Source of the DNA: Deuterostichococcus epilithicus
Lineage: Eukaryota > Chlorophyta > Trebouxiophyceae > Prasiolales > Stichococcaceae
Assembly: GCA_033439295.1 (NCBI GenBank)
Contig: JAVTLE010000017.1
Location: 868,001-932,000 of the forward strand
Direction of reading: 5' to 3'
Length of the DNA: 64,000 nucleotides
Every line of letters begins with the position of its first letter. Positions within the stretch are counted from its first letter, which is position 1. The notes under the pieces were generated by a model. That model was not told where the DNA came from. It made no database searches and saw only the letters and a list, made by a program, of their open reading frames with translations. This document shows positions 1 to 61,788 of this stretch, one piece after another. The translations under genes were made by a program, and so were the position numbers.

Positions 1-3000
1 TGGCTGTCTGCCCCTTGCCGCTCTGTGAAAGCCGGGGAATGGCAAGGTAGGGAAGATGAGCGTGCGAGCTCTGCTGAGCGCTGGAAAGCTCTGAAAGGGC
101 AGCGCATTTGGCCTTACCCATTGTCGGCAAGCTTTGACACACCTGAACTCGATGCAAGGCACGGTCTGCAAATCCGTGCAGTGCTGCAGTCGTATGAACA
201 GTGACAAATTCTGGTGCAGGCGCCCTTTGTGCTGCCCGGCGAGCAGGACCGAAAGGCGGTGATGAAGCAGCGCGCCGCGGCGCGCAATCAGCGCCTGGTC
301 GGTCTGAAGCTGCTGACGGCGGGTGAATATCCAACGAAACAGCCCCCATCTCTCTCCAATATGCATGCCTCGGTGATGCGGCATGTGCCGCGCAATCAGC
401 GCCTGATTTGCCTGAAGCTGCTGACGGCGGGTGGATGCGAGGTCCCGCACCTTCACTGCGTGTGTCTGAGTACGCTTGCCGCCAACAGCATTGCTGATGG
501 CACACAGCAGTGTGGCAGGAGGCATGGCAGCAGTAGCGCGCTCTATCAATGCTCAGAGCTCATGCTGGATGTCATGGCATGGCTGCAGGCGTGCGGTACG
601 GTCAGGCGCCGGCGCTGCTCACCGCGCCGGAGGGCAACGCCCTGTTGGCCGCGGTCGTCTCCAGCCTGCAGTTCAGGGGGGGCCACCGGCTGGCCGCGGG
701 CGCTGGAGAGTGCCTCGGCTACCTGCTGGAGTCCCTCAGCCGCCTGGCAAAGGCGCCGCCGCCAGGTACATGATTTAATAGCAGTACATATGTAATCAGT
801 CTTGAGATGATGTCACACAATGGCGACCGGCGAGTGCCTCGAGGGCTACCTGCTGGAGTCCCTCAGCCGCCCGGCCGCCAGGTAGTTTAACAATGGCACC
901 ACATACAATCCAAATATTGGTTTTGACATGGTGTGAAACAATGGCGACGGGCGCCGGTGAGTGCCTCGATGGCTACCTGCTTGGAGTTGCTGAGCCGCCT
1001 GGCAAAGGCGCCGGCGCCAGTTGATTTGATGAGGGCTGACACCACAAGGACACTTGCTCTGACCAGCATTACGAAGGGTTGGCAGCTGGCAGAGTCCCAA
1101 GAATGCCTCGGCTGCTTGCTGATGGCGCTCGGCCGTGGGGCACAGCCGCTAGCACCGGGTGAACCGGGTGAGGGCGCCTTGTGTGTGAGGGTTCATAAAG
1201 GGTTTGATGGACACGCACTGCCGTACTTTTGCAGTAGGCAGCGTGTGGCTGCGTGGGGTGCCTGTGACCGGGCCTGTCGCTGTTGTCGCACGCAGCGCAC
1301 TTCTCGTGTATCAACTCTCCGGGATCAGTCTTGCTCCTGTGCATAAACGGGGTGCGTTCTTGTGTGCAGGGCCGGTGCCGGACGCGTCAGAACTGCTGCA
1401 AAAGCTGTTGGACGCAGCGCGGCGGAGCCTTACCGACGCCGTGCTGGTGCAGAATGACGCCAGCAGGTGACGCGTGTACCTTCAGTCTGGTTGTGACTCC
1501 CCAATCTCATAAACAGAGTCTTGCAGCATCTCCGAACTGCAATCGTCGATCATGCATCCGCAGCTTGCCCCTGTTCTGGCAATCTGAATTCGGCAAGGGT
1601 ACATCTCACAGTGGATGCCTGTTGCTGCAGAGCGGGTGTCTACAACGTGTGAGTGTGTCGTTGCTCAGATTTTGCATTCAACAAAATTCAATAGAGATGA
1701 AGCCGGCCCTTGGCGGCAGGTTCCTGCACGCTCTGGAGCGTATCTCGGCGACGTATGCGCCAGTCGTGGACGCCGTCAGCGCTCCGCTGCTCAACATCCT
1801 GCCGCGCGTGCCGGGGCAGCTCGCCAGCATGGCGCTCCAGGTGAGAGGCTGCACCAAGTTCTTGGGGGTATGCCTGCACGCCTGTGAAGAGTGCTGTCGA
1901 ATGCAGCGGCAGCAGCACATGCTGGGTCCTGGCCTCCTGCGCTCTGACAAGCGTGCCCCTCCGGCTGTGTCACGAGCGCTGACTGCTGTTTGACGTCGTG
2001 CCCTGCTCTTTGCATGGCACAACGCTTGAAAACCCAGCATTACAGCACGTAGCTCGAAGGCGCGAGGGTTGATCGGCGTCCACTTAAGGCCGCGCCGCAC
2101 TCTCAAGCCGCTTCAGATTCTGCTTTGGGCGCCAGCAGGTCTCCATCGATCTGGAGGAGGCATGCATGTATGCCGCAAGCGTGGCTTCTCACCCTGTGGC
2201 TTCAGTGCCCCTGCAGACAGCGGCGCGGCGGGCACATGATAGCCTGGCTTCGAAGAGCAACACGTGTTCGTGTTGCACGCACTCCTTGCGACCCGACTGC
2301 TTCTGCTATTCCTGCAGACGCTGACGTTGCAGGGGAGGGATGTCCCAGATCCGCCGCTGGCGCTGCGCAGCGCGCTGCAGTGCCAGCCCCACCGAAGTTC
2401 TGTGCACATGCAGACACAGGAGCGGCGGGCACATGACGTCCCAGAGCTGCTGCCGGCACATGTCTGCGTTGAGAACCAATGTTGCTGACACCGCCGTCAG
2501 CGCTGCCCTGCAGACGCTGGCGCGGCGTGGCCGGGCCGTGCCGGAGCTGCTGCCGGCGCTGCGCGGCGCTCTGCCGACGCTGCTGGCGCAGCCCAATGCG
2601 GCGGTGCACGCTGGGCTGCTGCACCTGCTGCTTGCGGTGCTGTTGCCAGAGCCGGATGAAGTCGCTGGTGCGTGAGATCCTGTTCCGTGAGCTTCCGCAA
2701 GCATTGCGGGACTGCAGCAGCTGCTGTTTGCGGTGGCGCCATCAGAGCCCGACGATGTCTTCAGCGCACGATGCGCCAGTGCGTCTACCGACACGGATTC
2801 GACATGCATGTGCTTGCAGCACTATTACAGCATCATTATACTGGATCTGGCGTTGCGTGACAGTGCTGCGGTGAGGACCGGCACCCCTTTATGCCGCTGA
2901 ACGACCAGCTCATATAACAGCATCACGAGGGTGAAGGTGTCTCACTGCACTGCTGCTGCCAGGTGCTCCAAAGCCGAGTATAGAGTCGACTCAATGGCCC

Positions 3001-6000
3001 AGCAGACCACCACAATCAGCCTGAAATGAGAGCACATCTGTGGCGTCAGCCAAGCATATCAATGTTTTGAGGCAGGGCCAATAATGCCCCCGCCACACAT
3101 CTGGCGCCGCATTGACGCCGTACATCAGAAACATCAGGGCCCATCTTCAAGCGCATGGCATCTGACACTGCATCTTCTCATCGCAGGACCCCTGCTGCAG
3201 CAAGTCCTTGACGCGGGCCTCGCTGACAGCGGCTCGACGGCGGTCCGACGTGCCCTGGCGGAGCTGCTGCGCGAGGCGTGGGGCGGTCGCGAGGGCCTGC
3301 GGGACTCCTCGCTCCGGGCGCCGCTGCTGGCGCTGCTCGGCGACCCGGACGGCAAGTCCCGCCAAGCTATGACTGAGTGCTGCTTCGCAATGCAAGCTGC
3401 TTGACGCAACCAGATGTGTCAGCTGCAAGGGTTCTGCGAAGGACTGGGTGCTGGAGCTGTCTGCGGCAACGGCAGCCCTGCCGGGCAAGTTCAGCAATGC
3501 TGCCCAGCAACCGATTCTGGCCGAGCTTCAGGTCGTGCAAGCTTTCAATGTGGTGCTGGATCCAGAGTTTCACCATTGGCTGCCAAAAAGAAGTACAAGG
3601 CGTCAAATACACATCACAGGGACCGTCTGGGGAGAGGATTTAGGGTTTAGGGGTTTAGGGCACAGCACCGAGCCGCTCGCCGTGCTTCATCTCTTCACAA
3701 CTGCAATGATCTTGAGGCGATGGCCTCGTATCGCAGGAACCATCCGAGCGGAGGCGCAGCGCTGGTGGCACGCTGAGCTGCCGTCAGAGCTGCCGGCGCG
3801 GCTGCAGGCATTGCTGACGCATGCGGCGCCTGGCAGCGCGGCCCTGGTGAGGCAGCTCGATGTTTCTCAAAAGGCGTTTGCAGAGCCTCCCCTGTTGACA
3901 GAAACGCCTACGTTTCTAAGGACGTGACCTAAGGCGGTACGGCACCACTCGTCTGGCTGGCGGTGGTGCTGCATCGTCTGAGGTCGGCAGCATCAAGGCG
4001 TCTGCCCCAACACCTTTGCTCGTTGCCCAAGACTGCTAGCAAGACCTCGGCTTCGTACTGCAGCGCGTGTCCTGGTATTCGAAGAATATGTGCTGACATT
4101 TGTCACATGCGGACAGCACAGCGGAAGCTGCAGGAGGGGCAGTGCCCGCGGCGGCGGCGGCGGCACTGCTGCGGCGCCACGGGGTGACTGCGAGATTTCG
4201 CATTTACTGCTGCTTGAAACTCGCATCCATACCTGAACTGCTGCAGCGTAAGCGGCTGGAGGGGCAGTGGCCCAGCGCGGCTGCGGCGCTGCTGCTGCGG
4301 CTGCCGCGGGGCGACCGTGACGCGGAAGTACCCGTCTTCAGCGCCGGCCTCGCGGATTGCACTTTCCAGGAGTATCCCATCGACACCTGGCAGCAGGTAG
4401 GGAAGGATGGTCGCCTTCGAAACTGTAGCACTTAGGGAATCGCACTCAGGGAATCGCTGCCGTGAGCTGACCTGGGCAATATATATATATATAATCACTG
4501 CCAAGGCATCTCACAATGAGTACCCCATCGACACCTGGGTTCAGGTAAAAGCCTACATCTAACTGCTTCAAAGGTGATGCATGGACCTACTGGGGGTCGA
4601 CTGCCCCAAATTATTGGCCACAAGCTGATCAAATGCACAGTCGAAGAGTCCAAGGCGCGCTCAAAGCATCCGCGATGTCTTCGAATCAGATCGAAAAAAT
4701 CACAACTCCTTGACCGGACATGCAGAGTTGACGAGAGATGTGACGAGCTTATGTTGCCATTGTCCCTGGATCGTCCCTGGCGTCCCATTGTTATACTCCC
4801 TGCTCATACACCCTCTTGACACCTTTTTGACATTGTGCTTGCGTGGGTTCAACTGCAGATTTCAGCGCCGATGTTCCCCGCATCCTGGGCGGCAGAGCAG
4901 AAGAAGAGAAGAGGAAGAATGCATTCTGGTACATCTGAAATTTCTCGCTCTGAATCGGTTCAGACACCTAGGTGTGTTCTGTTCGCATTGCAGAGTACGC
5001 TGCAGATGGCGCCAATGTTTTCGGCCTCCTGGGCCGCGTCGCAGAGCGCATCACAGGACGCCTCGCAGTCGCAGTTTGTCGCGGGCGCTGGCGGCACCGC
5101 CGTTGGTAGGTCGCAGGTGCGACCCCGCAGCGTGCAGCGGCACCACATACGCCTGTGCATAAGGCGCTTTTGATATGTGGTTGAGAGGCTGCGTTCGCCC
5201 TGCACTCGTTGCAGTGCACATCAGATGCTATGGGCCCGTGCACAGGGAGGATTCGAGAGCTCAGCCCGACAACTTGCTGCTCTCGAAAGACCCCGCTGGC
5301 GTGCCCATCATCAGACACAAAAACCCTGTCATCTTCACTTCTGGGTGACGCTTTTATCGCAGGTGGCGCGCGGCATGATTCGGGCTACCCAGGCCGCCAC
5401 CATGTCACAGGTCGGGCGTCCTACTTTCCATCTTGCGGACAGCTGGTCCAAACTGTCTGCAGGCACCTGTCGTCTTGCCAGACGCCCTGCTGAATGCCCT
5501 GCCAGGGTTGGTTGTATGCCCCATGCATGCGACAACGCCAGGAGTGCGACAGCAGGCTGGAGAACATTCCAACAACGACAAGGTATACACGGAGCCTCCT
5601 GTGCGTGGCGCAGACCTACACCTTCAGCCTGGCGCCGCCGATGGACAGCCAGTATGCGCCAGGCGGCACACAGGTGCAACTCGCACTCGCATCGCCACCC
5701 CACGCCGTCTGACATGCTTCTCACATCATAGCAGCATATCATGTCAATCACTTCCATTTTCAAGCAAGCCCAGCGCCACTACGAGTGCTGCCAGAGCTCG
5801 GCCAAATAAACCGATTCGGTGGGTAGTCACAGCCTGCGCTTGCGCCCAGGGATCGCGTCGCAGCAGCCTGGACGGCTTCCGGCCTGCGGGCGCCACACAG
5901 TCCGGCAGCCAGGCGGGCAGCCAGGGGGGCAGCGTCCTGCAAGTGCGGCGGCGCCTGAGCAAGTGAGTCCGTGTGCAGGCAGTATGGCACGGCAAATGAC

Positions 6001-9000
6001 AGATCGCCAGGGGGCACTGCTGCGGGATGTGGCACCTTGGTGCTGTGATATATGATTTGAGCAGGGCAAGACATTGGTTGCTACAGCACCAACAGCCTGA
6101 TAGTGATCCAGTCAAGACTCGAGCGCTCTGAACGTGCCAATGACGTGTCGTCTCTTTGCTGCAGGGCTGACTCGCAGCGTGTGGGCATCCTGGCGAACCT
6201 GAGGCGCCGGCAGGCCGCGGACGGCGCCAGCACCGCCGCCCGCCACCGCAAGGTGCTGTCAGGCTCCATCCAGGCCCACCGATCCCTCATTGCGCACTCG
6301 CACTGGGACAATGGATGCTCGCAAAGGAAATTGATATCACAAGCCTACGTATACTCAGGAGGGACTACGCCGGTCATGTCTGTCGGAGCCTGGAAAGAAT
6401 GTGTGGCTCCCCTGGTGTCGGACTGCGAACGTGCAACATGTGACGCCGCGTCGCACATGCCATGTGGGCGCGATGTAGCTTCCCGAAATTGCGCCTCATG
6501 CATGTAGGTGACGCTGCTGCGGAGCTACCGCACGGGCGAGCTGCCAGATATCGAGAAGCTCAGCCTCGCTTCCTTCCTCGACCCACTCAGTGCGCCGCTG
6601 CCTCCCGAACTTGCCTGGCTGTTGTTCCTGGCACGTGGGTTGCTTTTTCTTTGCCATGGACCGGGCTCCCAGTCGAGATAAGCAGCGTGGTTTACCTGCT
6701 ACTCTCGATGCGGAGTTCCTGGTCCATTGCGGAGGATGTGCGGTCAGCTGCTTGAGCCAGCTGGCAGTCAGCCTCCGAGTTCGGTCAGGCTGAGGCATGC
6801 GCTTCTGGTTGCGAGTGCCAGCTGCGATAGACGGCAATGGCGCCTGGCATGGTCAGGCAATGCTGGAGAGCATCCCACTTGACTTAAACCTGCACAGCAG
6901 CCTGCCGCATGGGCGATGCGGCGGATGCAATGTGCATCCCGTTGAGCAAGTTCCTCCGAGCGAAGCTGTCACATCACGCCTCATGCATTCGCAACAGACC
7001 AGAGAAGCTGCTGACCGCATGCATTTTACGATGTGCGCTTTAGCCGTCTATGCGCCCGCCAGGCAGCTGCCGCCTCCTCCTGAATGTGCGAGTACAGCCA
7101 CTGATGCGCGCCGCAGGCGCGATGGCTGGGCGGGACAGCAGCGTCGCGCGCCTGGCGCTGCAGGGCCTCTGGTCGGCCGCCGTCGAGGAGCTGGCGGCGC
7201 AGGCGGGCGGCGGCAAGCGCGGCGCCAGGGACGCGGCGGCGGACCTGGCGGCGCTGCGTTCGGCGCTGGCGGGGCGCTTTGCGGCTTCGCCGAAGGAACC
7301 GCTGTTCGTGCAGACGCTGCAGGTGGGGTGCCTTTCATGCACACGAATTCAAACTTCAGTTTCACGCAGTCGCGCGGACTTGGCAAGGCTGGATGAATGG
7401 CAGAGCAGACGGGGTGGGGCCTCAGGTAAAATTGCTGATGCGGGCAGGGTGCCCGCAGGCCCAAATGCCAACGATTCAAACACGGGCGTCGGCTCCGCTG
7501 ATCTGCAGGGCTTTGCGCTGGCGGATCCGAAGACGCGTGTGTCGCCCCGGCTCGCGGCGGTCGCGGCGCAGGCGGCCGGGAGCCTGCAGGCGGGCGCCCT
7601 GCAGGTAAGCTTGCACACTTCAGCACTGGCTCCATGTGGGCATGTTGTGCAGCTGCGCCTGTGGACCGCACCATTGTGCTGCGCTTCCTCTTCTTTATAC
7701 AAGGTATGCTTTCCCCTTGCCTCATGCCTCAACCGATCATCGGCCTGGTTCTATCTCGACTCGTATGGCCGCTTCTGCCCTGCTGGGTTACGACGCTGGC
7801 ATTTGCATCTACTGACTGATGGCAGACGCTCATCTGGATTTTCAGCATTGCCCTGTGCAGATCGAGCAGCAGATCATCTCGAGCGCAGATGGCGACGATG
7901 AGGCGCCGCCCGCCAAGTCCCGCAGGTGTGCCGGCATGCATCGGTGGTCTGTTCGGCTGGCTTCCTCTCAACGACACCGGGCACGCACGTTTCTGTGTAT
8001 TTGCAACACATCACATCCAGCGTGCGGTTGCCTGGATCGACAGATGCAGATCCCGTTGCATTTTGGTCCGTGCATCCATTGCAGTCACCCTTCTCAATCT
8101 GCACCACCTTGCGCTACAGGACGTCTGCCGCCGGTGGAGCGAATCCGAAGCTTCGCGGCACGCCCGCGGCGTGGGCGGCAGCCGCTGATCTGTACAGCGA
8201 ACTCGGCGAGGACAACCTCATGCAGGTCGCCTTCGCCTTGCACGTCGCCAGGTCCCCCCCCCCCCCACACACACACACACACCCTTCCCGCGGGAGATTT
8301 CCCCCGAGTGGCCCCCGGCGCTCCTTAGGTTCTCCCCGAGTCCGCACCTGTCCTGAACTGGTTTAGCTTCCAGCCTCAGAGTAGTACCAGAGACTGCGGG
8401 GGCACTGTTGCCGCATTCGGGCAGCGGTGGGGGCCACTCGCCAGCAGCCAGCAAACCAATGCCACAATTTGTTGACGTGGGTTCTTCACGTGAATGGCGA
8501 CCGCTTTGTGATCAGGGAGACACTCATTCCCGTGAGCTGCAGATGCCCTGGGACTCCCATTGCATTGCGGCTGCTGCGTGGCGGCCACCCCAATGCGGCC
8601 TTCACGACATACGAGCGGCTGCTGCGCGCGGCCGGCGTCCTGGAGACCGAGGAAGAAGACGACATGGTGCGGCGCCAGCCAGGCTGTGGCTGTGTGGGTA
8701 TGGGTTTCTCTGGGTTGGCGTGGCGAGAAGCGTTATACTCAGCCGGCTGGCACGAAACACATACAATCATCGAATATGCCCCTGTCCTTGTATCGGAGAC
8801 CGCGTGCGCCACCATGAGCACAGCTATCGCCTCCTAGGAGACCATCGCACAGGAACTTGCCATGAGCGAGCTTCGCCATCGGTGGACCCTGCCTTCTCAA
8901 GGACTGTCGCTCTGAGACTTCCGAAACATCTCCCTGACTGCCAGGACGAGGGTGGCGGCGCGCCCACGGACCCTGCAGCGCTGCTTGGCGGCGCTTCGCC

Positions 9001-12000
9001 TTCGGCAGAGGAGCAGCAGCTGTGGCAGGCCGAGCGCCTCAGGTTTGGCTGCCGCTGCGCATCCTTGCCACGTCCAACGTCCGTTTGTACGGCACAGATC
9101 TGGTGTCTGACACCCCCGCTCTGAGCAGCTGCACGTGTGCCGGCGCTGCGGCAGAAGGCGGTTGCTGGGCTTTGAGACGTTCAGCGACAAAGGAACCGCC
9201 TTGCTGGGTCCTGATGACAAATTTTCGGGAGGCCCGCGGCGTCTGAACATGCTTGCATCCCGCACCCACTGATAGCAACCGAAAAGTCTCAAGCGCTGTC
9301 CAGCAATGAATGTCCTCCCCGACTTGAAGAGCCTCGAGTCGCTTGCGGGCCGGCGGGTTGTCGCGGCCTGCCGACAAGGGTTCAGCAGACCAGCAGCGCC
9401 CGAGCACGCTGACTGATGCCCCGCCCCTCTCAGCTAGCGAAACCAATCCGTGTATACTTGCAGGAGCCTGGAGTCGCTGGGCGACTGGCAGTTGGTCGTG
9501 TCCGCCATCGACGACGAGCTGCTTCCCGCCGCCGAGGACGCCGAGACGGAGGCCGATCTGGAACCGCAGGACGGCCGCCTGTTCACCGACCTCAGACCGA
9601 TGCTGCGGTGAGTCATCCAGTAGCTGCCAGGCACGACTTGACAGCACTGGGCTGTCCATGACGCCGCTGTCGAGGCGTGCCCTTGACGCGCGGTCGCCCG
9701 CCGCTGAGGCAGAGCAGCCAATGTGGAGAGGATGTGAGGGTGGAGTGGATCATCAGCCAATGTGCAGCAGCGCAAACGCAGCCTACCCTGCACCACATGT
9801 GAGGTGGCTTGACCCGCATCTGCTGGCACGCATGCCACGCAGGCCATTCGTGCGTGCGTGCCTGTTCGCCGGGCCAGGCGACAATCAGGCGGATACACGG
9901 CGGCGGCTCGCGACTCTGCTGGGCTCGGCAGAGAAAGACGCAGCGCGGCGCGATGTGCTGCAGGCGGCGGTGCCGGTGGAGGCCGCTGCACAGCGAGCCC
10001 TGCTGCAAGACTGGGTCGGGTGGGTGCCTTCGTCTCCAAGCTGTACTGCAACAGGAGATTTGGACCAGATGTCCACCAAGCTGAGTGTGTGCGGCCGCAG
10101 CGCTGCTGCGGATTGGTCCGGTTGCGCGGCGCGGCGTCTCTCGTGCAGCCTTCATGCCCTGCCATCACGGTGTCCTTTCGTGATGCCCGCTGGAGACCTC
10201 AGTGCAGGTCAAGGGCGAATGTAAGAGGGAAGTCTTCCAACACGTCCGCAGAGTGTGCGCTTTGACATTGGTCATGCCTCATTGTCCAGCAGCAACGGTG
10301 TATCAATTCGCCACCGGAAGTCAGCGTCCCACAGCTGCCGTCACGCAACAACGCCATGCTCAGGATAGACTGAATGCTGCTGCAGGGCGGCTGCCGGCGC
10401 GAGCGCGGGGTGGGGCGTCTTCCAGGAGCGCTGGGCGGCGCTCCACCCGCTGTCGCAGGCGCGACGTCGCGATGCGCTGTCTCTGCTGCAGCCGCTGGCC
10501 GAAATTCAGGTGAGGCATGGATCAGTGTGCGGCGTGGCTTTGGGCCGCGGCTGCAATGGGTTTTGGGTGTGCCTCAAGGCAGACTGCTCCCATGCACTGC
10601 AACCCTCGGATCCATCTCCGTCAATGACTGGCGCGAGCGCAGACTTGCAAGGCGAAGTTCGCATTTTGCCATCATGCTGCATGACTGTGATGTGCTTGCT
10701 GCGCTCGATCTGTCGTCAAGGCAATGACATTGCCGCAGCAAAGCCTGCCAACATCCTTCACTCACGTCAACCCATGCTCGAGCTCAGTTACAGGGATCAA
10801 CAGGAGATCCGGCTGCAGGAGAGAACCTTCTGCACCACGGGGTCTTTGTCGATCTTTTGTGGGATAAAGCAGGGGGTGTTGCGCAATGAGGCGAATTTCC
10901 AGCTGTGCGTAACGCACGCTGCATATCACGAAGTAAATTCGTCTTCACGCTCGTTGCATGAGGCAACAGCGCTGCCTGCAAGCGCAGCAGGGCGCCCGGT
11001 CTCGTCACCACTTGGGCGCTGTGGCGACCTGTGAAGCTCGGCTCCACGCTCGCCGCAGGAGGTGGCGGCGCTGCTGCCGGCGGAGCAGGGCGCCCCGGTG
11101 CCGGAGCCCGCTCTCCGACAGCTGGCGGCGGTCTGGCGGCGACGGTGGCCGACAGCGGCGGCGGCATCGCCTGACGCCGCACTGACGGTGCATCACGTGC
11201 GAGGCCTGCTACTCGAGGTGCTGCGGCCGCGCCTTGGGCCTAAGGTACGCTCCAAGAGCAGCAACCTGCCGCATTACAGGGTAGTCGTTCAGTCACTACA
11301 GGCTCACAGGAGCAGCATCGTGAGCTTAGTGCCCAGCGGACATCATGCCAATGCGGCTTTCACTTTGTGAACCTCAACTTGAGAGGCGCCTCGCAAGAGA
11401 TCACCCAGTCCACGCGGTTCGCTGGGGCATCAAAACCTGCCACCGGCGTCTCCCGCCGGTGTCAGACCTCACTTCGGTGACCTCCTGGACAGAGCACGTG
11501 TATGCACCACCCACCTCGAGGACCTCTGCAAGCCTGCCCGTGTGGAAGTCATTGTCTGACGCAACCTTGTGGACAAGACGCACATGTGCCCCAGCCCACC
11601 TCGACATGTCGTACCTTTTTCATTTAGCTTGAACTTCTTTTCGTTTTTTTCCTCATGCCAAGGAGGTCGATCCGAAGCTTCTCTGTTTCCTGGATCCATT
11701 TTGCAGGTGGTCAGGGAGCTGTACTCGGGCCTGGCGCTGGCGGCCACGGGCTGCAACATACGCTTCACATGCCTCCCTGTAACCTCCCTTCCTTGTGTCT
11801 TGAAGGTGGTCAGGGAGCTGTCCTCGGGCCTCGCACTGGCGGCGGCCGGCAACCTGCGCGTTGTTCGGCAGCTTGATACCAAAGCAAGCCTAAATGACTG
11901 TCAGATATGTTGCCCCTCACTCTTGCTGCAGGTGGCGAAAGCGCTGTGCCCGGGGCTGACGCTTGGTGCGGGGCTACGAAGTGAGGTTGATCTTTTTGTC

Positions 12001-15000
12001 GCTACCTAAGCTGGTGAAAGCGCTGTTCTCGGGCCTGGCACTGGTAGCCGCTGGCTACCTGCGATGTGCGGGGGGAATTGACGCTGTATAGAAAAGCCTC
12101 ATTGTCTCATCTGCCGTCCCTTGCCCCTGCTGCAGGTGGCTCACGAGATTTCATCAAAAATGACGCTGGCGGCTGCGGGCCACCTGCGATCCTCCGGACA
12201 TCTGGATCTGGCATCCGACCTGCTGACGCGGCATGCGGAGGCAGGCGGCGGCGCCGATGACGAGCTGCTGACGGCCCGTGCATCCCTGCGCATCGCCCAG
12301 GTGGCTCTGCAAATTCAATGGCCCTTGCTCTTGCTCTTGCATATCTCATGCTGCGCCCATCTTGCGGCACGCGGAGGCGGGTAGTGGCTCCGGCGACGAG
12401 CTGCTCGCGGCCCACGCCAGGCTGCAGGTGTTTATGGAAGAGGTTTTGCTTGGTTTGTGAAAGCTTTACTGCTGGCATGTGCGCCCTTGCATGTCCCTCG
12501 ATGCTGGCATGTCCCTCCGTCCGACAAGGACCCAAGGACCCAGCTAGTGATGTGGCAAGCGAATTGTCACGGCTGCAAGTTTCCAACGACATGCGCCTTG
12601 CAGTCAACAGAGCATGGTTCCACATGGAGGTGCAGTGTGTGGGCAATCTTGTATGGTGCAGTGCTGACCTGCGGTGCCCCGCAGATGCATCGGCAAACTT
12701 CCTGATGCGCAGGTTGGCGCGGCGTGCAGCCCCAAGGAGGCGGACGCCGCGGCGTCGCGCCTGCGGGGGGAGGTGCGGCAGCTGGCAGCGATGGCAGGCN
12801 GNGNGCCAGACGCGGCCGCGGCGCGGTCCGCCCTGCTGTTGCAGGGGCAGGCTCACCTGCTGCTGAGCAGGTGCGTCAGCTGCTTTGCAAGTGCATGTGT
12901 GGAAACTCGGGGGAAATGAACCCTGAACCCACCCTCTCTCAGCAGTGCTTGCAGACAGGCAGCGCTGACAACCTCTCGGGTCGGCGCGCCCGCCGAGGCG
13001 CATCATTGCATGGTCGCACAGGCTGCAGATAACCTGTACCTGATGCCGCGCTGTTTGCTGGAGCGGCCACCGCCGCCGCTGACACTAGGCCATGTGACTG
13101 CGCAGGCGCAAGCACAGAGCCGCAGAGGCCGAGCACCTGCCCGCGGCACTGTGCTGCCTGCGAGAGGCCGCGGCGGCGACGGCGGGCGTCGCTGAGGCGG
13201 TGGCCGACGCGGGCCGCGCGCAGCTGGCGCTTGCGCGGCTGTGCGACGACATGCTGCAGGCACATAACTTGTATCGTGAACACACTCTGCATTGCTCTGC
13301 GTTGAGTCCGCAGCATGAGCAGGCAGCCAAGGCAGGCGCGGCTGTGCGATGACATGCTGCAGGCAGAACGTTCGATTACTCTGATGATTTTCTATTCTGT
13401 TGTGTTTGTTGTAAAGTCTTTTTGATGTCACACCTGGAGTTGCTGCGCCTGGCCGTGGCACAGTGCACAAGCCTGTCGGGCTCCCTTCTGCAGGTTGCAG
13501 CAGGTTGCTGGAGTGCCTCAGCAGAAACACTGAAGCTATAATCACGCAGTGCATGTGACCAGCTTGATGTTGTATCGTTGAGCCCTTTTCTCACATCGCC
13601 TGTGACTTGGCCTCAGGAAGCGGAGGTCGGAGACGCGGATACGGCACAAGCTGACGCCGCCGCCACGGCGCGGCTGGGGCTGTCAGGCGGCGACACCGCG
13701 GCGGCGCTGCTGGTGCAGCACTTGCTGCGCGCAATGCACGCTGGCAGCGAAGCAGGTAAGGCGACCTTTCGAGTGCTTTCGAACATCCTGCACATGACTC
13801 ACTGAATAGCGCATTCATCAGCGACGTGTCAATGTGCCGCGAAGCAAGCAAGGCACCGACATGCCCAGCTGCGGCATTTATTGGACTGCAGATGGTATTT
13901 CAGCAGCATGTCCTGCGTATTCCAAGTAGTTGCACCTCACCAAGCTTGGCCGCTGCGTCTCTTGCTTGCACTAGTCGATGGATTGTACACATCATGCGGG
14001 AGACGCCTGGCTGATTGTGCCTGCTGAGTACCTAGTATCTGCCCTGCCTGCCGCAGGGCAGCAGGGGCAGCTTCACATGTAGTGGCTGCCGAAAGCAGCA
14101 GCAATTTTTCAGCTCCTATGTGTCAGCCTGACAGATGCCTGACAGAGTGCCATTCTCCACTATTGCTGCAGGCCAGCAGGCGCAGCTGTACGTGCCGCGC
14201 CTGCTGGACGCGCTCGCTGGCGGCCCCGCGGCGCAGGCTGCATTCCTGGCAGGCTGGGGCCAAGTGCCGCTGGCCGCCTTCCTGCCGTGGGCGCCCTCCA
14301 TGCTGTCGCTGCTGGACGCGCCGCAGGGGGAAGCGCTGCTGCCGGCGCTGCAGGTGCGCACGTGTCCTTCGAGTTGTCGGTAAGAACCGCCCGTCTGTAG
14401 GTCTGTTGCATTCGGTGCAGGCTCTTGGGCAGGCCTGACGGCATATTTCAAGCGGTTTGCGCCGGCGCTGTCGAGTCGCCGTGCGGGTGCAGGGCAGCAC
14501 GGGGTGGTGGTGGAAGAGGGTTGACCTGCTTCTCAGGGCATGTCCTCGCACCACAGCTTGCAAATCATCCCGGTGGACTCGGGGTCTGGGCATTTGTACT
14601 GATGTCCGCTGGTTCTCGCATGGACGGTCAAATCGCACAGCACCGAGCCGCGAGGAGCGGTCGCTGTGTGTTTTGCGTACATGTCAAGACTCAGCATTGT
14701 GCGATTCCAGGCTGCCGAGGCCATCATGGTATCTGGACCCTTCCCTGCACAGCCAGCCAGGACCACATGCTCGTGTGCACAAGCCGGGCGCCCCCGACAG
14801 GGACACAACGAATGGAACACATGTGGTGACCTCGTGCATGGTTTCGGAGCGCAGGCGCTCGCGGCGGCGCACCCGCAGCGGCTGTACTTCCCCTTCGGCC
14901 TGAGCCGCGGGCACTACGGGGTGGAGGGCCGGCGGCGCGCGGCGGCGCTGGCGCCGGGGCTGGCGAGCCCGCTGCTGGAGGCCTTTGCGTCGGCGCTCAA

Positions 15001-18474: not shown

Positions 18475-18505
<31 letters not shown>

Positions 18506-26015: not shown

Positions 26016-26039
26016 GTGCAAGAGGCGCTGGTCTAGAAG

Positions 26040-33221: not shown

Positions 33222-33342
33222 CCTTTCCGTTTGTTCCCTCAGCTTGTCGCTTGCTGTTGCGCATTCCGACCGCCTTCGGGCCTGTGCTATAGTCAGCCAC
33301 TTGACTGCACAGTATGTAACCAAGTCCAAGTCCAAGTCCAAA
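33222..33342 (+). mobile_element. 120-bp LINE tail inserted in LINE tail
   Basis: Directly after the (AAGTCC) tail of the longest LINE, a second copy of only the last 120 bp of the 3' UTR (from tcctttccgtttgttccc) begins and ends with its own (AAGTCC)n tail. Confidence 0.85.
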
Positions 33343-41900: not shown

Positions 41901-42829
41901 AGGCTGCGGGATGTCTGACTGCGCAACATGCCTAAACTGCCCCCGGCACCTGAGCTAGCCGCTCCCATCGCAGGATTCCGCGAGCGCTATGGCACACCAC
42001 TCCGAAACCCAAACTTGGACTTGGACTTGGTTACATACTGTGCAGTCAAGTGGCTGACTATAGCACAGGCCCGAAGGCGGTCGGAATGCGCAACAGCAAG
42101 CGACAAGCTGAGGGAACAAACGGAAAGGGCGTCGAGCAGACCAAAACGACATCGGCAACCATGTCCAGTCATAGAGTTATGTGCCACAGCACCCGCGGGT
42201 AAACCAGTAAACCCCGCGCAGACATACAGGACCAGTGGCGCACAAGGCGCCGAGCTCTCTGGCTCGCTGGGACCGGAAACGCCGTGAGGCGCCCTGCATG
42301 CTGGTGGAAGCAGACCAAACACAAAAGCCAAGGACTGAAAAACACACGCTAAGCCTAACCTCCCGCTGCCAAGGCTACGGGATGTCTGACTGCGCAACAT
42401 GCCTAAAGTGCCCCCGGCACCTGAGCTAGCCGCTCCCATCGCAGGATTCCGCGAGCGCTATGGCACATCACTCCGAAACCCAAACACAGAGAATGAAATC
42501 GCCATCTAACCCCATGCCGACCCCAAAAGTCCCGACAGCAAGGTGCCCTCTGCCTCGAAAGTATGATGATGATAGGCCTCATTGAGAGCTCGAGCCCAAG
42601 CCCTCTAGCTCCGCGCAGCGATCGGCGCAATGCCGCAGAAACACCCCCAAGCTGGCAGGGTCCTGCTGCATGAACGCCTCGACCGTGGCGTCGCCCCGGC
42701 TGAACAACTCCACGTGCTGGAGGCGCTGGTCTAGCAGAGCAGAACACCCCCAGAGCATGTGCTCTGCGTCATCAACCTCGCCGCTGACAGCTGCGCTGCT
42801 CGCGCGGCAGACCGGCCCACCGCCCTGTG
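38914..42829 (-). mobile_element. Tandem head-to-tail array of LINE 3' ends, minus
   Basis: Units start with ttggacttgg at 38914, 39319, 39791, 40195, 40667, 41071, 41543 and 42015. Lengths are 405, 472, 404, 472, 404, 472 and 472 bp. The last unit is the longest and extends into ORF2 (to about 42829). Each is a 5'-truncated LINE 3' UTR ending in its own tail. The 404/472 pairs make a near-identical 876-bp higher-order repeat. Confidence 0.9.
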
Positions 42830-48852: not shown

Positions 48853-51522
<2,670 letters not shown>

Positions 51523-53358: not shown

Positions 53359-53389
<31 letters not shown>

Positions 53390-56300
53390 TACATCTGCTG
53401 GTGGACTCTCCAGCGAGGCCTGCACTCGGCGAACACAGAGAACATGATGTACTGGATCTCTGTTCTGACGCAGGACGCAAAGGTCAAGCGCATCCTGGAG
53501 TGGCTGCAGGAGCCGGCACCCACCAGCGCGAAGGACCTCGCAGCCCAGGTGTGGAATTCCGGCACACTGCCAAGGTCGCTGATGCTAGACTTGCAGCCAC
53601 CCAATATCGCATCTGGAGTACTGGCGGCTGGCACCGTGCATTGCGTGTCAAGACTGCCAACTGCAGCTGGCTGCGACTGCATCAGGTGCTGAGACCAGGC
53701 CCAGTTCCAAGGCAGGAAGGGCGGATGGATCACGGCGGGCGCCGTCGAAGAAGTCTTGGGATGCTTGGACAGCCGCGCCGTCTAAGCATTGCTCATTGAC
53801 CGCCCACAAACTTCAGGCCACGAAGAAGCGGGAAGCCAGCAAGCGGAAGCGGGAGAAGGCAGAAACTCAAAAGGAGAAGGCGGAGGCGCAAAAGGAGAAG
53901 GCGGCAGCCAAGAAGGCGAAGACAGCGGACGGAAAGGCGGCGGCGAAGAAGCCATCCGCCAAGGGCAAGGGCAAGGCCGCGGCCAGCACGCCGAAGGTGA
54001 GCGTTGATCCATGCTAGACTGGGGACTGGGGCCTCCACACGACTGTGCGCCAACAGCCACGGGCTCGGAGCTGTTGGACGGAATGGCAGGCTGCCGGGAG
54101 GTCGCTGACCAAGGCATGAGCCGGGGCAGGCAGCCAGCGAGCTGTGCGCTGCAGACTCTGGCAGGCAGCTGTCACACGGTGCACGTTGCGAGCTGGGCAT
54201 CCCTGTAAGATGTGCAGGACGAACCATGTGCTTCAGGGTGTAAAGTGTAGCTTTTCCCGCGCACGTGCAGCGCCCCCTGTGTAGACGCTGCAGCCCCACA
54301 GTGCGGGAGCTGCACATAGCCGTGGACACCCTGAATCGCCCTGCCATCACGGCTAATATGTCTGCGTGATAGCACACATCAGAGCACACTGAGCACCCAA
54401 CGTCTGCGCTGAGGCATGGCTGACAGAATACGCTTCTGCGTGCTGCGCAGAAGAGGAGATCGGCACAGAAGGCACAGGCCGAAGGTGAGCGCGGCATGGC
54501 AGCCTGGCATTGAGCCAGTGTGAACAGTGGCATATATGGGGCCACTGCGGAGCTTCGACCTTCCAGCACATATCTACATGGCTACCCTCGCTCTGCGGCC
54601 CGGCCCTGCAGCCTGGAGGCGGTTGTCAGGCGCCGCCCCGACTTGCTGGCAGACCCTGCTCCTGCCTTTCCGGGCGCAGCCCCCAGCATGCGCAACCCTG
54701 TCACCCGATCTTAACGCATTTCCGCACCTGCGGCACACCAGCTGTCTGCTGACTGCAGCGAGGTGTGGCCAGTGCGCCTGTCCCTGGCGAGAACTGCTGT
54801 CGGGAACTCACGGACATGCATGTTGGCGCGCCATGTGCAAAGGAGGAGGAGAAGGAAGCGGAGGAGAGCTGCCAGAGACTTGCGCATGCTTGTGCTCGAG
54901 TGCCAAGTCGTTGACCGTACTTTGCGCAGACGAGGAGACCTCGGACGTGGAGCACGCGGCAGCGGAGGAGAGCGAACCGGATGACGAGCTGCCGCTGGGC
55001 GTGGCAGCCAAGCTGCCGTCCGACGCCGCGCTGGTCAAGCAGGTGAGGTTGTGCAGTAAGGTCAGGGTGGAGCTGCTGGCTGGTGTTCAAACAGCATTGC
55101 AACAACAATGCCACTGCTGGGGTCGGCTCACAAGCTGCCCTACAACGCCGCCCTGGTCAAGCAGGTGCCACACGTTGAGCCAAGGTCCATGCAATTGGCA
55201 ATGCCGCTGCCGCCAAGCTGCCGTCCATTATTGCGCTGCTGAAGCAGGTGAGATCTGAATCAGGTGCGGGGTGCGGCATCCCGCCAAGGTCCGTCGACGT
55301 GGCGATGCTGCCTGCAAGGGCATGCTCACAAGCTTCAGTCTGACGCTGCATTTGCCACGCAATCTGCGGCCCCTCTGGTTGGCCAGCGGTTTCGAATATC
55401 CGCAACACCGCTGCCTGGGCTGGTTCACAAGCCGCCATCTGACGCTGCGTTCATAGAGCCGGCACAGGAGTATGCTGGGTCCTAAGGGGCGGCCATTGGC
55501 GGTTGTCTGGATTCACTGCAATTGGCGCCGCTGCTGGGGCTGGCTCGACGCGCCGCGCCGTGCCGCGCTATACAGCGCGCCTGCAGCCGGCGTCACGGCA
55601 GCCCACTCTACCCTCGTCAGCGTGAATCTGGCCGAACTCAACTGAGTGAGGCACACTGGCTGCCTGCAGCGAGGGGCCTGCCAAGCATGTCTCGTGGCAG
55701 CTCGTCACGTTTCTTTGTGTTTGGTGCACGCAGGTGTGGGCCTTCCAGTCAAAGATGGATCAGGCTGGGTGCTGGAAGCTTACGGGCATGCTGCTGCAGC
55801 TTAACAACGTGGTTTTTGCCATTTTCCTGCAGGTGCACTCCATCCTGTCGACGGTGAATGTGCTGGAGTTTAACCTGAAGGGGCTAATGGCACAGCTGGG
55901 TGCGCTAAACACTTCCATTTTGACTCTGAATCCTTGCTGCCTCGTGGCCGTGCTCGTCGCTTGGACATGCAAGCATCGACACCTTTGGTTTAGACGTTCT
56001 GCCGCCGTCTCCTCTTACGGCTCAGCGCTGCCGCTGGCAAGTTGGCTGGCACGCTTGCCCCTGTGCCGCCGCATCTGCAGCGTTCTTGATGAGCTGTCAT
56101 CCCTGACAAGCACTCATCGTGTGGCCTCGTCAAGGGCATCTCAGCTCCTGCCTGTCCCTGGTGGCTGCCACTCACTGATCCTGCCCGCCAAAAGCCCGCA
56201 TTGGAAACGACTGTCACTCACCGTCCCGTCTTTGCCGCACCCACAGCGGAGCACCAGCACGGACATGGCAGCCATCCAGCGACTCATCAAGACGGCTGCC

Positions 56301-57000
56301 ATCTGTGTGCCAGTCAATCTTCCACCTTACTTTTCCCTTCTCGCGCCTGCAGCGGAGCACTATGGCACGGACATGACGGCGAAGAAGCCGCTCATCAAGA
56401 CGACCGCCATCCAGTACTGCCTCGATAACCCGGTCGGCGGCGACGGTGGCAAGGACGAGGAGATGGAGGGAGATGAGGCGGCAGAGGAGGCGGAAGAAGA
56501 GGCGGAGGATGCAGCAGATGGGGAGGCGGCAGAGGAGGAGGTGGCAGAGGACACAGAGGTGAGGAGCAGCGGCAAAATTGCGATTCCAGACACCATGCCA
56601 CGCACGTGGGGTTATTGCTTCGGCCAGCCAGTGGGCCAGCAACGACAGCGGCAGTATGCGACCCTGTTTTTGATCCGCAACTTGCTGAATTGCGCATCGA
56701 AGCAGCAATGCTAGGAGCAGAGACGCAAGGTCTGTACGATCTGCAGGCTTATTCGAGCATTTGCACAGCCCCTGCATGCATGGCATCCTCACGATCACTC
56801 TGGGTGCGCAGCATCGACTGAATACGTGCACCTTCGAGGGGTGATCGGTTGGGTCGCCCTTCATGCAACAGGGGCCGGCAGCAGTGTTGGTGCCCGCCGC
56901 AGACATGGTGGCCGAGGAACAGCCGGTGGTCGAGGTGGCTGAGGCGGCGGAAGCAGCAGGGGAGGCGCTTCCATCTGCGAACGCCGAGCCCGCTGCATGA
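51881..57000 (+). CDS. DEK: DEK-domain chromatin-associated protein
   Basis: Twelve exons with matching phases give 458 residues: 51881-52159, 52258-52291, 52416-52498, 52735-52797, 53025-53138, 53474-53548, 53817-53996, 54451-54484, 54930-55042, 55833-55899, 56353-56558 and 56872-57000 (TGA). The N-terminal part is Ala/Pro-rich. Then come GAGAKLRDIPN, LSKVSGKDELMELLHDVLYNR and the SAP-like part (RDILDFSGFTF, LHRLLDIFELPRG, VKRILEWLQEP). A Lys/Ala/Glu-rich segment (exon 7) follows, then an acidic stretch, and a DEK C-terminal domain (LPSDAALVKQ, VHSILSTVNVLEF, YGTDMTAKKPLIKTTAI). The tail is acidic. DEK proteins bind DNA and histones and shape chromatin topology. Introns after exons 9 and 10 carry exon echoes. 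Confidence 0.92.
53359..53388 (+). repeat. (CTG)n microsatellite in a DEK intron
   Basis: About nine CTG units lie between DEK exons 5 and 6. Confidence 0.9.
55003..55545 (+). repeat. DEK exon-edge echo array, five to six copies
   Basis: The exon 9 end AKLPSDAALVKQ+donor (55003-55042) is followed by copies at about 55125-55166 (KLPYNAALVKQ+gt), 55212-55250 (KLPSIIALLKQ+gtgag), 55326-55356 (KLQSDAAFA) and 55424-55453 (KPPSDAAF). A sixth remnant of the shared intron part lies near 55515-55545. Spacing is about 84-125 bp. Divergence rises away from the exon. Confidence 0.85.
56245..56420 (+). repeat. DEK exon 11 echo upstream of the true exon
   Basis: A copy of the acceptor and exon start (cagcggagcaccagcacgg, then gacatggcagccatccagc) at about 56246-56312 precedes the real exon 11 (56353). 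The upstream copy has lost the family residues; the true exon keeps GTDMTAKKPLIKTT. Confidence 0.75.
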
Positions 57001-57522
57001 ATGGCGGTGGTGGCAGACAGGTGTTGACACGGGCACGATGGACGAACTCGAGCTTGTCAAATGGGTGTGGACCAGAACTGCGATGCCCTGCGTGACGGTA
57101 ATCGGCCCACATCAAGCCATCGATGGCAGTGCTGGGCTGGCGATTGGCTGTGCATACCGTCGTTAAGGCTGCACTGTTCTTGGACCGGCTCCTTGACTAC
57201 CCACTCTGCAGGATTGGCAACCGGCTTGACAGAGAGAGCTGTGTCGGAACAATTTTTGACCGTGCAGCCAGTCAAATCGGTGATGGATTGGCAGGGAGAC
57301 GATGCCAAGTGCACGCTGTCACCTGGCAGAATTTTGGTCGTAGATAGATAGCAAGATTTCGAACACCGCAATGCTTGCACTAATTAGAAACTGAATCCTG
57401 AATCCAGCAAAGAAACCACCTTTGAATGTTGGACAGATGCATCAATCCGAGGACAGCGTTCACCTTCGACTGCATGCTGCCGCGCCGCCAAATCACCGAA
57501 TTGCAAGTCGCATCTCACGCGC
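57001..57522. other. Convergent intergenic interval DEK / LLPH
   Basis: Both genes end here, so it should hold two 3' UTRs. No coding signal or conserved structure was recognised. Confidence 0.6.
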
Positions 57523-58633: not shown

Positions 58634-59392
58634 GCTGTCGAATGCAAGAGTTCAGTACAGGCTCAAGTTCTGCTGTGGTGAATGGGCTCCTCAATGCTCC
58701 GCTCCGCGAGAGCCTCTGCCCACGAGCACAACGATGGCGATTCCAGTCAAGCTTGCGATTGTACCTGCAACTGGAAAGTTGAGGGCGGCGTGTGTTGTAT
58801 ATCGTACTTCACACTAACGATGAACTCTCCGCTGAAGAGTAAACAGTGTGAACAATGTCGGCTCTGCGCGCTGACATCGACTCCGTCACCCGCCGCTGTG
58901 CATTTGGCGGTGCTTGGAAAAGCCCAAGTTTCTCGCTCTGCAGACTCCACTGGATTCCAAAGCCTGTTCTGCAGACGAAGCTTCTTTTCAGAGTCGGAAT
59001 TGGGCTCACGGGAGTTTGCTTCACGTAGCCAGGTGTGCAGGACTCGCCGCAGGTTACTGCTGACTAGACGCCCGGTGCGCATACCCTAGCTCGAACAGCA
59101 TGGGTCCGTGAGTGCTGAGGCAGAGACGATAACAGCTCTGGGTCTTCAGTTGTGTGCGGTTATGATATTCCTTCACCCCATTTCGCTCGTCTGCGCCGCT
59201 GCCCACATGCCGAATCCAGGCACGGTATGATGTGCCATTTGAGACGGCATGGGCAACTCTGCAAGCATGGCTGCGCACTGACCACTTGAAGCTCGCTGCT
59301 CGATCGCCACAGCCTTGATCGTCGCTCCTTGGCGGCGTTGAAATGCCTGCAGGCCCCACCGCTCCGCCCTTGAGGGTCTCTGGCCTCGTCAG
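58634..59392. other. Intergenic interval LLPH / GPP
   Basis: No conserved coding segment was found. At its right end (about 59345-59380) it holds an echo of the last GPP exon. Confidence 0.55.
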
Positions 59393-59470
59393 TCATTCTT
59401 GGGCAACAGCAGCAAATGCCGGCAGGCCCCACCGCTCTGGCCGGAAGGCCTCCAGACTGGTCAGGACCTC
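59345..59470 (-). repeat. GPP last-exon echo in the 3' flank
   Basis: gagcggtggggcctgcaggcat (minus strand, about 59345-59366) is a diverged copy of gagcggtggggcctgccggcat in the last exon (PERWGLPAF). It lies just past the stop codon at 59393, so here the duplicate fell in the 3' UTR or flank and not in an intron. Confidence 0.7.
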
Positions 59471-61788
59471 GTCTGCTGCTGCTGTCGCGGCGCTGTCCAT
59501 CTTTGGATCCGGCACCATCACGACAGACCTGCAACAAGGTGCACATGTCACGGTCTTCAGCCGTGATGGAGGTCGAGCTGTTTCCTACCGCCACAATTTC
59601 AGGTTTCTTGTAGCACGCGCCGTTGCGACTCCTCAGAAACCCAGAACACTGCTGCCACCACATCCAAGAAGTGGTGCTGTAATCTGTTGCTGCCAGGCAG
59701 AGCCGCGCCCTGTGAACGTTTCAAAGCAGAGCATAATGAAATCTGTACGGCGGCTAGGGAGGCTGCAGGGGTGACGCCTTGCCACGGCCGCTCAGGCGCC
59801 AGACCGCGGTCTGGTTTCTCAAATAATGCAGCCCCGTGATTGACACACACAACATCGGAAGAGTGCTTCAGGGGAGTGTGAGCTGCAAACTCTCACATGC
59901 CGGCTGCCTTGCCGGCAGCCAAGCCCGTCGCCGCGTCCTCGAAGACGAGGCACTCGGCGGGCGGCGCGGGCGGTGAGAACTCCCGCGCTGCCCGCAGGAA
60001 TATCTCCGGCGCCGGCTTCCCATTCACCACCTGGTCACCTGCAGCGGCGAGACAGGTAGACACCAGACTGATCAGTTTCGTGGATAGCTATGTCCTGCCA
60101 CGGCGTGATCCGCTTAACAGAACCCGCAGATCAGGATGATCATCGTCTAAATACCCAGCGCCATCCGCCCGGAGCAGCCAGGTTGCCGCGTGCAAAGCAT
60201 GCAAAGCGTTGAGCAGGAGGCCGTGCCTGTGATGCGATGGCTGAACAGCTCAAAGAGCTCTCTATGCCGCGCAGTCTTCAGTTCGAAGTGCCGCCGGTGC
60301 GATGATGTCGCCAGGCAGAAGGGCACGCCATGCTGGTGCAGGTGCCGCAACAGGCGCTCTGCACCTGCATGGCACCCACAGACAGAGCCCCTCGTCAAAG
60401 GCGAGGTCTTCTCAGCACGAGGCATTGTCCGTCCACTGCGGTGGTGCAGCGACATCGGGGCGCAAGCACAGGTGCTGCAACCGCCTCGATTGGGCTGTGC
60501 CACAGGACACCGCGGCTGAGCGCTGTGATCCGTCGAGACAACCGCCGGCGCCATCTGGGCAAAGATGTTGCTTCCGCAGCTGCAGCAGACCTCGCAGCCA
60601 ATTGAGATGAGGCCCTTGCGGCGGCTCTGCTCCTCTACGATGGCGCGGCACAATAGCCAACATGCGACAGAGCTGCCTCGAGCCTGTCCGGTGCACGTGC
60701 GCCATGTGTAAAAAGGTGGCACAGGCGGCGATCGCCAAGGCTCAGCCTCCCCACCTCTATCCAAAACTCGGCTGACAGCAACCCGCAGATCCACTCCCAT
60801 AAGCAGGCGACTCCCCGAGCACACTCCGATTCACTGGGGACATGTCATAAGTTGGTAAGAGCGCCCACCCGGCATGAGCTCCGATTCTGGAAACATCGCG
60901 TCAAGCATTTCCTCCCGCTCCCGCACGAAGTCCTCCGGCGTGAGCTGCCCAGCCAGCCCCGTGTCCTGCACAAATACCTGCGCAGCAGGACGACCCATTC
61001 ACTGTGTTTCGAGGCAGAAGTCTGTGCAACCGGACACGTGCGTGTCATAAAGACGCGCTGTCCACTAGGAAGGTATGCATCTGCCAAAGCTGCGATGGCT
61101 TCCAGCGCCTGCGCGCAGCGTCAGTACGAGGCAGCATGGGGAGCCGTGGCATTGCTGCTGTGCGCGGCCGGGACAGGGAGTGAGAGCAAGCAGGAGACGC
61201 AAGCGCACATGCAGCGGCTGTGCTTCTGGAGGGACCCCACGCACCTCGGCAGCCTCCAGCGCCTTTTTCCCCATCATCTTTGCCTGTGCGAACAGCGTCC
61301 ATCTTTGCTCGAGAATGATGGATGCGTTTGCAGCGCACAGCAGGTGCATGAGCTTATATTGAGCGCCGCTGTTCGAAGTTTGTGTGCTCTCAGTTCCTTC
61401 GCTCGACACACCTTGAGCTCCCAGGTGAACTCCTTGTCATAGCGCCGCAATATAGCGGTCTGCACTTTCGTGTAGAAGCGCTCCGTGTCCAACAAAAGGC
61501 CATCCATGTCGAAGATACATGCGTGCGTTTTGACCTGCAGCCAAAGTCTGCAATTCTAGTCACGCAGGACGCCAGCACCGCCGCATCACGAAGGCTATTA
61601 CGGCGTCATGAAGCGACAGATAGTTGGGATTATGCTGATCGGCAGTAGGTCTGATGCATGCCGTATGCGCATGCGCATGCGCATAACTGTCGATGTTCCA
61701 GGGCCTTCGGAGCAGTCGTCAGTCACCAGGCCAGCTACACACGATAGACTGACGCCGCTGAGAAAACCCTCACCTTTGCTGAGGTCAT
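59393..61788 (-). CDS. HAD-family phosphatase, plant glycerol-3-phosphatase / pseudouridine-5'-phosphatase type
   Basis: Seven exons on the minus strand give 233 residues, all in phase: 61774-61788, 61412-61534, 61245-61283, 60869-60977, 60227-60364, 59897-60038 and 59393-59528. HAD motif I is [11 protein letters not shown] (nucleophile and acid/base Asp). [13 protein letters not shown] and a cap domain follow; motif II is CLATSS, motif III the Lys in NGKPAPEIF, and motif [20 protein letters not shown]. The end [10 protein letters not shown] ... [11 protein letters not shown] matches Arabidopsis GPP1/2. It should remove phosphate from a small phospho-substrate in the cytosol or plastid. The five-residue first exon (ATG ACC TCA GCA AAG, then gtgagg) is inferred from phase. 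The intron after 60227 uses a GC donor (ACAG|GCACGG). Confidence 0.9.
61664..61684. repeat. Alternating purine-pyrimidine (ATGCGC)n tract
   Basis: Three ATGCGC units just upstream of the GPP start (about 125 bp inside its first intron). Such alternation can adopt Z-DNA. Confidence 0.75.

Follow-up and report, generated by a model that had tools for sequence, protein, structure and literature searches.

The genes of the window and their exon echoes

The DNA analysed here is a stretch of 64,000 nucleotides (the window) from the trebouxiophycean green alga Deuterostichococcus epilithicus (GenBank assembly GCA_033439295.1, contig JAVTLE010000017.1, positions 868,001-932,000), with a GC content of about 61% and forming part of a genome of 46.8 Mb in 21 contigs. 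It carries genes resembling DNA-PKcs (PRKDC), DEK, ZMAT2 and GPP, in which short pieces of an exon border recur as diverged copies in the adjacent intron or flank; these copies, termed exon echoes, are the subject of this study. The gene labels are backed by Pfam matches above the cut-off on the predicted proteins (DNAPKcs_CC5, PI3_PI4_kinase, DEK_C, zf-C2H2_jaz and HAD_2). A 4HBT match was also above the cut-off, one of the six predicted window proteins had no Pfam match, and one raw frame of positions 1-14997 gave none either. The DNA-PKcs-like gene (220 to about 24300), which has many exons and a further FATC match below the cut-off, is the echo-richest of the four named genes. The original prediction had placed echoes in all four genes, and pairs were found in each of them (Table 1), that of GPP being weak. 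Exon 4247-4396, which is echoed on both sides, falls in the DNAPKcs_CC5 stretch as judged by cumulative exon length.

Table 1. Exons, exon echoes and related repeats in the window.
Feature	Position	Strand	Basis or remark
DNA-PKcs-like exon, donor end echoed	220-322	+	HMM exon; pair 281-328/389-436, 90%
Echo of the donor edge of exon 220-322, GT at copied junction	370-436	+	start approximate
DNA-PKcs-like exon, donor end echoed at least twice	589-765	+	HMM exon and repeat pairs
Two echoes (~829-885, 942-1020), intervening intron unit repeated too	829-1020	+	weaker third at ~1093-1170 by eye
Two acceptor-edge echoes (2311-2378, 2409-2457) of exon 2514-2667	2311-2457	+	
Acceptor-edge echo of exon 4247-4396	4119-4188	+	
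Donor-edge echo of exon 4247-4396	4506-4547	+	intron 4397-4993; score 45 vs best of 60 shuffles 38
Acceptor-edge echo of exon 11059-11244	10939-10997	+	
Array of diverged copies within intron 11245-12135	11701-12063	+	
97% copy of 13233-13262, at donor end of exon 13106-13240	13336-13365	+	
Pair 15626-15671/15821-15867 in intron 15525-16270	15626-15867	+	missed exon possible there
Acceptor-edge echo of exon 18804-18980	18642-18688	+	
Abutting tandem copies, 68 bp unit, extending into exon 20444-20548	20324-20462	+	
Tandem array, ~109 bp unit, donor edge of ZMAT2-like exon 50787-50917 into its intron	50557-50851	-	
DEK exon, donor end echoed	54930-55042	+	HMM exon
Two echoes (55131-55167, 55209-55252) of the edge of DEK exon 54930-55042	55131-55252	+	two weaker to ~55480 by eye
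Acceptor-edge echo of DEK exon 56353-56558, exon entering Pfam DEK_C domain	56236-56303	+	
Weak pair, 3' end of GPP-like HAD gene	59341-59464	-	41.9 bits

Besides the window, the analysis covered 28 short loci obtained by two family searches and twenty stretches of 10 kb from contigs C1, C3, C4 and C5. On one contig lies an ABC ATPase gene that has no introns and a GC content of 29%; the ATPase is cysA-like, and we take the contig to be plastid. The plastid locus L029 and four overlapping loci were dropped before the final pair counts, which cover 44 loci (the window and 43 others) on 16 contigs, amounting to 316,313 bases of nuclear DNA with the transposon zone removed. That zone (window 24.4-45 kb) was omitted from the pair and intron counts, yet kept in training the gene model; the intron-length, AGGT-junction and edge-probe tests still include up to 10 introns from overlapping loci.

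Exon borders were taken from a simple GT-AG gene hidden Markov model (HMM) self-trained on the sampled DNA alone. It converged on the donor CAG/GTGCG and the acceptor TGCAG/G (the slash marking the border), a third-position GC of 0.83, and median exon and intron lengths of 127 and 250 bp. Judging by the Pfam matches on the predicted proteins, the models are, on average, adequate for placing exon borders. They wrongly fused the kinase gene to a thioesterase-like gene and transposon DNA, disallowed GC donors and probably missed some exons (for example in 15525-16270). Such errors act as noise, and the far-end and unrelated-exon controls described below carry the same errors.

Exon echoes are local, direct and specific to exon edges

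Close repeats, defined as copies at most 450 bp apart scoring at least 38 bits, were counted against block-wise dinucleotide shuffles. The 316 kb held 62 direct and 2 inverted pairs, and the shuffled DNA held none. The direct pairs comprised 44 between an exon, mostly its edge, and a noncoding copy, 15 between two noncoding copies and 3 between two exons. The 44 exon-echo pairs derive from 38 distinct exon borders in 16 of the 44 loci; the phenomenon as a whole was found on 10 of the 16 sampled contigs. Their alignment spans the exon border in 37 cases, and their spacing has a median of 116.5 bp (10-90% range 84-218 bp); the original prediction gave roughly 80-130 bp. The predicted series of up to five copies also has its counterparts, with three to five copies at 691-1020 and 55004-55480, the weakest of them judged by eye.

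Edge specificity was assessed with probes of 60 bp of flanking exon against its own intron, a match having to beat all 60 shuffles. Of 452 introns, 35 echoed the tail of the upstream exon and 39 the head of the downstream one, where chance would give 7.4 in either case. Unrelated exons used as probes on the same introns gave 8 and 10 matches, and the far ends of the same exons gave 5/276 and 4/285, all at chance level. Twenty tail and 23 head probes exceeded their shuffles by more than 8 points, and none did so in any of the four controls. A separate, stricter test agreed, with 17 edge matches in 318 introns, none in sense for 374 far ends and 1 in antisense. When introns were compared with themselves, 82 of 542 were self-similar, that is, scored above 60 of 60 shuffles, where about 9 were expected by chance (552 introns tested). 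An excess of acceptor over donor echoes in one lenient test (49 versus 17) vanished with the exon-only probes (35 donor, 39 acceptor) and in the pairs from the basic local alignment search tool (23 donor-side, 21 acceptor-side).

The edge-probe controls and the direct, inverted and shuffled counts rule out chance similarity as the cause, and confirm that the exon echoes are real, statistically strong and present beyond the window. The self-comparison of introns with their flanking exons, which the original prediction had proposed with a shuffled control, thus gave an echo density above the controls at the sampled loci. Strict echoes were present in 51 of the 452 introns, so not all introns carry one.

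Anatomy and decay of the echo copy

The copied part ends exactly at the splice site in 27 of 54 strict echoes and within 8 nucleotides of it in 49, and in 51 of them the distance between the echo and its splice site is 28-140 nucleotides (8, 193 and 216 nucleotides in the rest). As predicted, the splice site is often part of the copy: of the testable echoes, 15 of 23 on the donor side retain GT where the junction was copied and 14 of 25 on the acceptor side retain AG, together 29 of 48. The observed identity between exon and echo is 80.8%. Mismatches amount to 187/1372 (0.136) at codon positions 1+2 and 172/685 (0.251) at position 3, a ratio of 1.84 (bootstrap 1.58-2.16). A neutral echo paired with a coding exon predicts a ratio of about 2, because changes in the echo fall evenly on the three codon positions, and those in the exon mostly on the third. 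A frame-breaking gap lies within the alignment in 24 of the 44 pairs. On the strength of the codon-position ratio and these gaps the echoes are mostly dead copies, which bears out the expectation that one copy stays a clean exon and the others diverge or lose their frame.

Dispersal of the copies was examined by searching the whole genome with two DNA queries, window 691-1020 and L023 4216-4295, which matched only themselves and the local partner at L023. A dispersed element of the introner or transposon type is ruled out for these two queries, neither of which found a copy elsewhere in the genome.

Probable tandem duplication across exon-intron borders

We consider it probable that old tandem duplications across exon-intron borders gave rise to the echoes and lengthened the introns. 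Small tandem duplications with a unit of about 70-270 bp (median about 115) would arise across a border. Where a unit comprises one exon edge and part of the adjoining intron, splicing could keep using the copy joined to the rest of the exon, so that the messenger RNA would be unchanged and the extra unit would stay silent inside a longer intron. The exon copy would be preserved by selection on the protein and the echo would decay as neutral DNA. Since the intron halves of both units would decay along two neutral branches, the recognisable remainder would in time shrink to the exon half, ending at the splice site. We infer this order of events and the selective neutrality of the extra unit from the present state of the copies. 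Elsewhere, break fill-in followed by end joining is one demonstrated source of such small tandem duplications, according to excerpts of PMC8355091.

A unit of this kind should continue into the intron, and it does so as an average, weakly in most single cases. Beyond the alignment, the flank on the intron side has a mean score of 6.3 against a permuted null of 1.7 (standard deviation of the mean 0.9), and the flank on the exon-inner side shows no residual likeness (2.1 against 1.6, standard deviation 0.96). Four single pairs exceed the 99th percentile of the null on the intron side and none on the inner side; at least 34 intron bases are included in the alignment in 6 of the 44 pairs. Complete head-to-tail tandems were found at window 705-1003 and 50557-50845 and, within an intron, at L012 7819-8194. 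Simulated border duplications of a single age t=0.20 gave an identity of 80.4%, mismatch rates of 0.127 at positions 1+2 and 0.240 at position 3, and a fraction of 0.80 stopping within 8 intron bases. The simulation reproduced the sharp stop only with old events and frequent indels.

Several observations weigh against this explanation. Similarity breaks off sharply at the splice site, the alignments reaching a median of 5 nucleotides into the intron and 34 of 44 (0.77) stopping within 8, and the intron-side homology is an average property, single pairs above the 95th percentile numbering 6/44 on the intron side and 4/44 on the inner side. The indel/substitution ratio of the simulation (about 0.4-0.8) was chosen after seeing the data, and a ratio of 0.2 fits worse. 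Three pairs more than 92% identical (L014 5799/5913, L023 4216/4459 and window 13233/13336) are short for their spacing and misfit the decay of a tandem unit. Noncoding pairs number 15 per 44 edge pairs, against 27 per 197 in a well-fitting simulation. Only one of the 54 strict echoes lies less than 28 nucleotides from its splice site, whereas in the simulation 21-27% of units had an intron part that short, although observed echo distance and simulated intron part are not quite identical measures; the model lacks a filter on unit placement, and a duplication that takes in too little intron could interfere with splicing and disappear. Finally, with 38 borders behind them, the 44 pairs are not fully independent. 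As to the near-identical pairs themselves, the L014 pair consists of two echoes of one exon, and that of L023 (4216-4295/4459-4538) is an 80 bp, 94% identical intronic pair, unique in the genome, with unrelated-looking DNA between the copies.

A first alternative is copy-and-paste during break repair, by which a 30-80 bp segment of exon edge would have been inserted about 30-140 bp away in the intron with no full tandem unit. In its favour, the alignments cover a median of only 0.46 of the spacing, the three near-identical pairs are 30-80 bp long at 103-243 bp spacing, and similarity stops sharply at the splice site. Random segments would not, however, centre on splice sites, where half of the strict echoes begin or end exactly at the junction, and the mean residual homology on the intron side, its absence on the exon-inner side and the complete head-to-tail tandems speak for a longer unit. 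We judge copy-and-paste unlikely.

Alternatives considered, and the link to intron length

Selection may instead be keeping the echoes as alternative exons or splice sites in actual use, or as decoys. The retained splice dinucleotides and the end of similarity at the splice site agree with this, long-term maintenance would likewise leave no pairs of at least 92% identity, and in 20 of the 44 pairs no gap breaks the frame within the alignment, so that single functional cases are possible. Changes at positions 1+2 are nevertheless too frequent for two coding copies, more than half of the pairs are frame-broken, and the retention of GT and AG is near the neutral expectation at t of about 0.15 (about 0.72 for two sites). 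Changes at positions 1+2 and frame-breaking gaps rule out coding constraint on the echoes as a general explanation. Mutually exclusive or duplicated coding exons are rejected as well, as the two copies are often not both in frame and do not both look coding (24/44 broken, ratio 1.84). Function as the general cause of the echoes is, in our estimate, quite improbable. With splice dinucleotides kept in many echoes, cryptic splicing from echo splice sites is possible.

The original prediction held that introns are gained or lengthened, and its two halves fared differently. Self-similarity was found in 55 of 127 introns of at least 350 bp versus 14 of 276 introns below 250 bp. Self-similar introns have a median length of 407 bp versus 230 bp for the others, and of 280 bp after one unit is removed, which still differs from the others (p 0.006), as would be expected were some introns to hold several units. 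Lengthening is thus supported. Gain is not: the signature expected from duplication of AGGT-bearing exon sequence, in which exon tail plus intron head resemble intron tail plus next exon head, occurred in 0 of 530 introns (0.2 expected). This absence rules out intron gain of the type modelled by Rogers at visible ages. That model likewise invokes short tandem duplications that include splice sites, and some room is left for very old gains; with donor-edge echoes lying at least 134 nucleotides from the acceptor in 25 of 25 strict cases (the last 25 intron bases being unprobed), it is a most improbable account of the echoes. An assembly or gene-model artefact is scarcely credible: the gene models are self-trained without RNA or reference annotation and the window holds 16 Ns, but exon and echo copies differ by about 20%, perfect or near-perfect tandem arrays were assembled elsewhere in the window (33106-33339 and 38914-42485), so collapse is not general, and the self-similarity test needs merely approximate gene models.

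The self-similar introns are concentrated in certain loci (permutation p 0.0005; length-stratified 0.001). They number 17/46 in PRKDC, 8/16 in L014 and 7/18 in L012, and 0/104 over L011, L015, L022, L025, L027 and L028 combined. Contig C5 (L022-L028, L044 and L045) is echo-poor, with 5 of 127 introns self-similar versus 77 of 415 elsewhere, a deficit that was noticed post hoc (locus permutation p 0.01); 30 of the 127 C5 introns are at least 350 bp long.

Age of the exon echoes

At codon positions 1+2 the 44 exon-echo pairs diverge to a homogeneous degree (chi-square 36.4, 43 degrees of freedom), and none of them reaches 92% identity. Among all 62 direct pairs, the three that do are all classed as noncoding. 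The true donor of exon 13106-13240 may be a GC site, outside the HMM; the window pair 13233/13336 would then be an exon edge, giving 1 young exon-echo pair in 45. Duplication at a constant rate with neutral decay was rejected, as it predicts 8.7 young pairs, a chi-square of about 81 and over-long intron parts; under this model a chi-square of 36.4 or less has a probability of 0.001, and zero young pairs occurred in 0 of 1000 resamples. With ages starting at 0.05 both age measures pass (P 0.13 each) and the intron parts are too long. Compatible ages are a single one of 0.16-0.20 or a range of 0.10-0.30, 0.20 being closest on the other measures.

Duplications would accordingly have been rare, or have ceased, since about 0.05-0.1 neutral substitutions per site. 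Repeated short tandem duplication across borders, as originally proposed, is supported as to the duplications, and the process seems to be an old one that has mostly ceased, not one still under way. A burst and a mere stop cannot be told apart from these data because older events fade. A past wave of border-spanning tandem duplications, now over or nearly so, that remodelled the introns of the lineage is a tentative reading that we hold to be rather doubtful. The detectable fraction of simulated events was about 30% at age 0.16 (419/1400) and about 10% at 0.20 (143/1400). If there was such a wave, the 44 pairs among some 540-575 introns would translate into about one event per 1-4 introns, a good part of present intron length would be built of copied exon borders, and break repair or effective population size could have changed when the wave came to an end. 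The absence of young exon-echo pairs makes a steady process versus a past wave testable in relatives.

Other features of the window

A nearly pure TGC run of 38 units (98% matches) at 50102-50215 lies in a ZMAT2-like exon and would encode a long poly-glutamine tract. Positions 24400-45000 form a retrotransposon-like zone, with reverse-transcriptase-like frames judged by eye, and hold nested 404/472 bp tandem arrays, an array of about 454 bp and a perfect 116 bp duplication.

Comparison with known systems

Break repair also gives rise to small tandem duplications in rice, termed 'patch-mediated'. In tandem exon duplication with mutually exclusive exons, exon sequence is also repeated in the neighbouring intron; unlike these, the alga copies mostly one exon edge, its frames often break and one copy appears neutral.

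The duplications described in excerpts of PMC8355091, made by Pol alpha-primase fill-in and end joining, are alike in being short, local, direct, head-to-tail copies; in the alga, by contrast, the visible copies are old, have exon-intron borders as their centre and show a link with intron length. The AGGT model and the potato RdRp case share with the alga a tandem duplication bearing splice signals. In the potato case, as far as the excerpted text of PMC4974935 goes, an intron-exon structure was copied, and an 83 bp tandem duplication inside an intron is also mentioned; unlike that case, the alga shows no new intron and an existing intron is lengthened. Relatives of Chlamydomonas are also algae, with atypically long introns (median 198-343 bp, cause unsettled), and the authors regard the mechanism as likely ancient and the advantage of long introns as unknown; the sections of PMC8226300 at hand do not mention border duplications.

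Among the literature matches listed, with most subscription journals outside coverage, none treated echoes of exon edges as traces of introns having grown longer. What determines intron length is an open question, and the echoes give part of an answer that is readable in the sequence. Exon edges serve as slowly decaying tags of duplications that would otherwise soon be invisible in introns, and by such tags the events that lengthened introns can be counted and dated, the exon copy serving as an internal standard. The class of mechanism is known from the systems above, and it is the border-centred, length-linked fossil record of one age that seems to be new.

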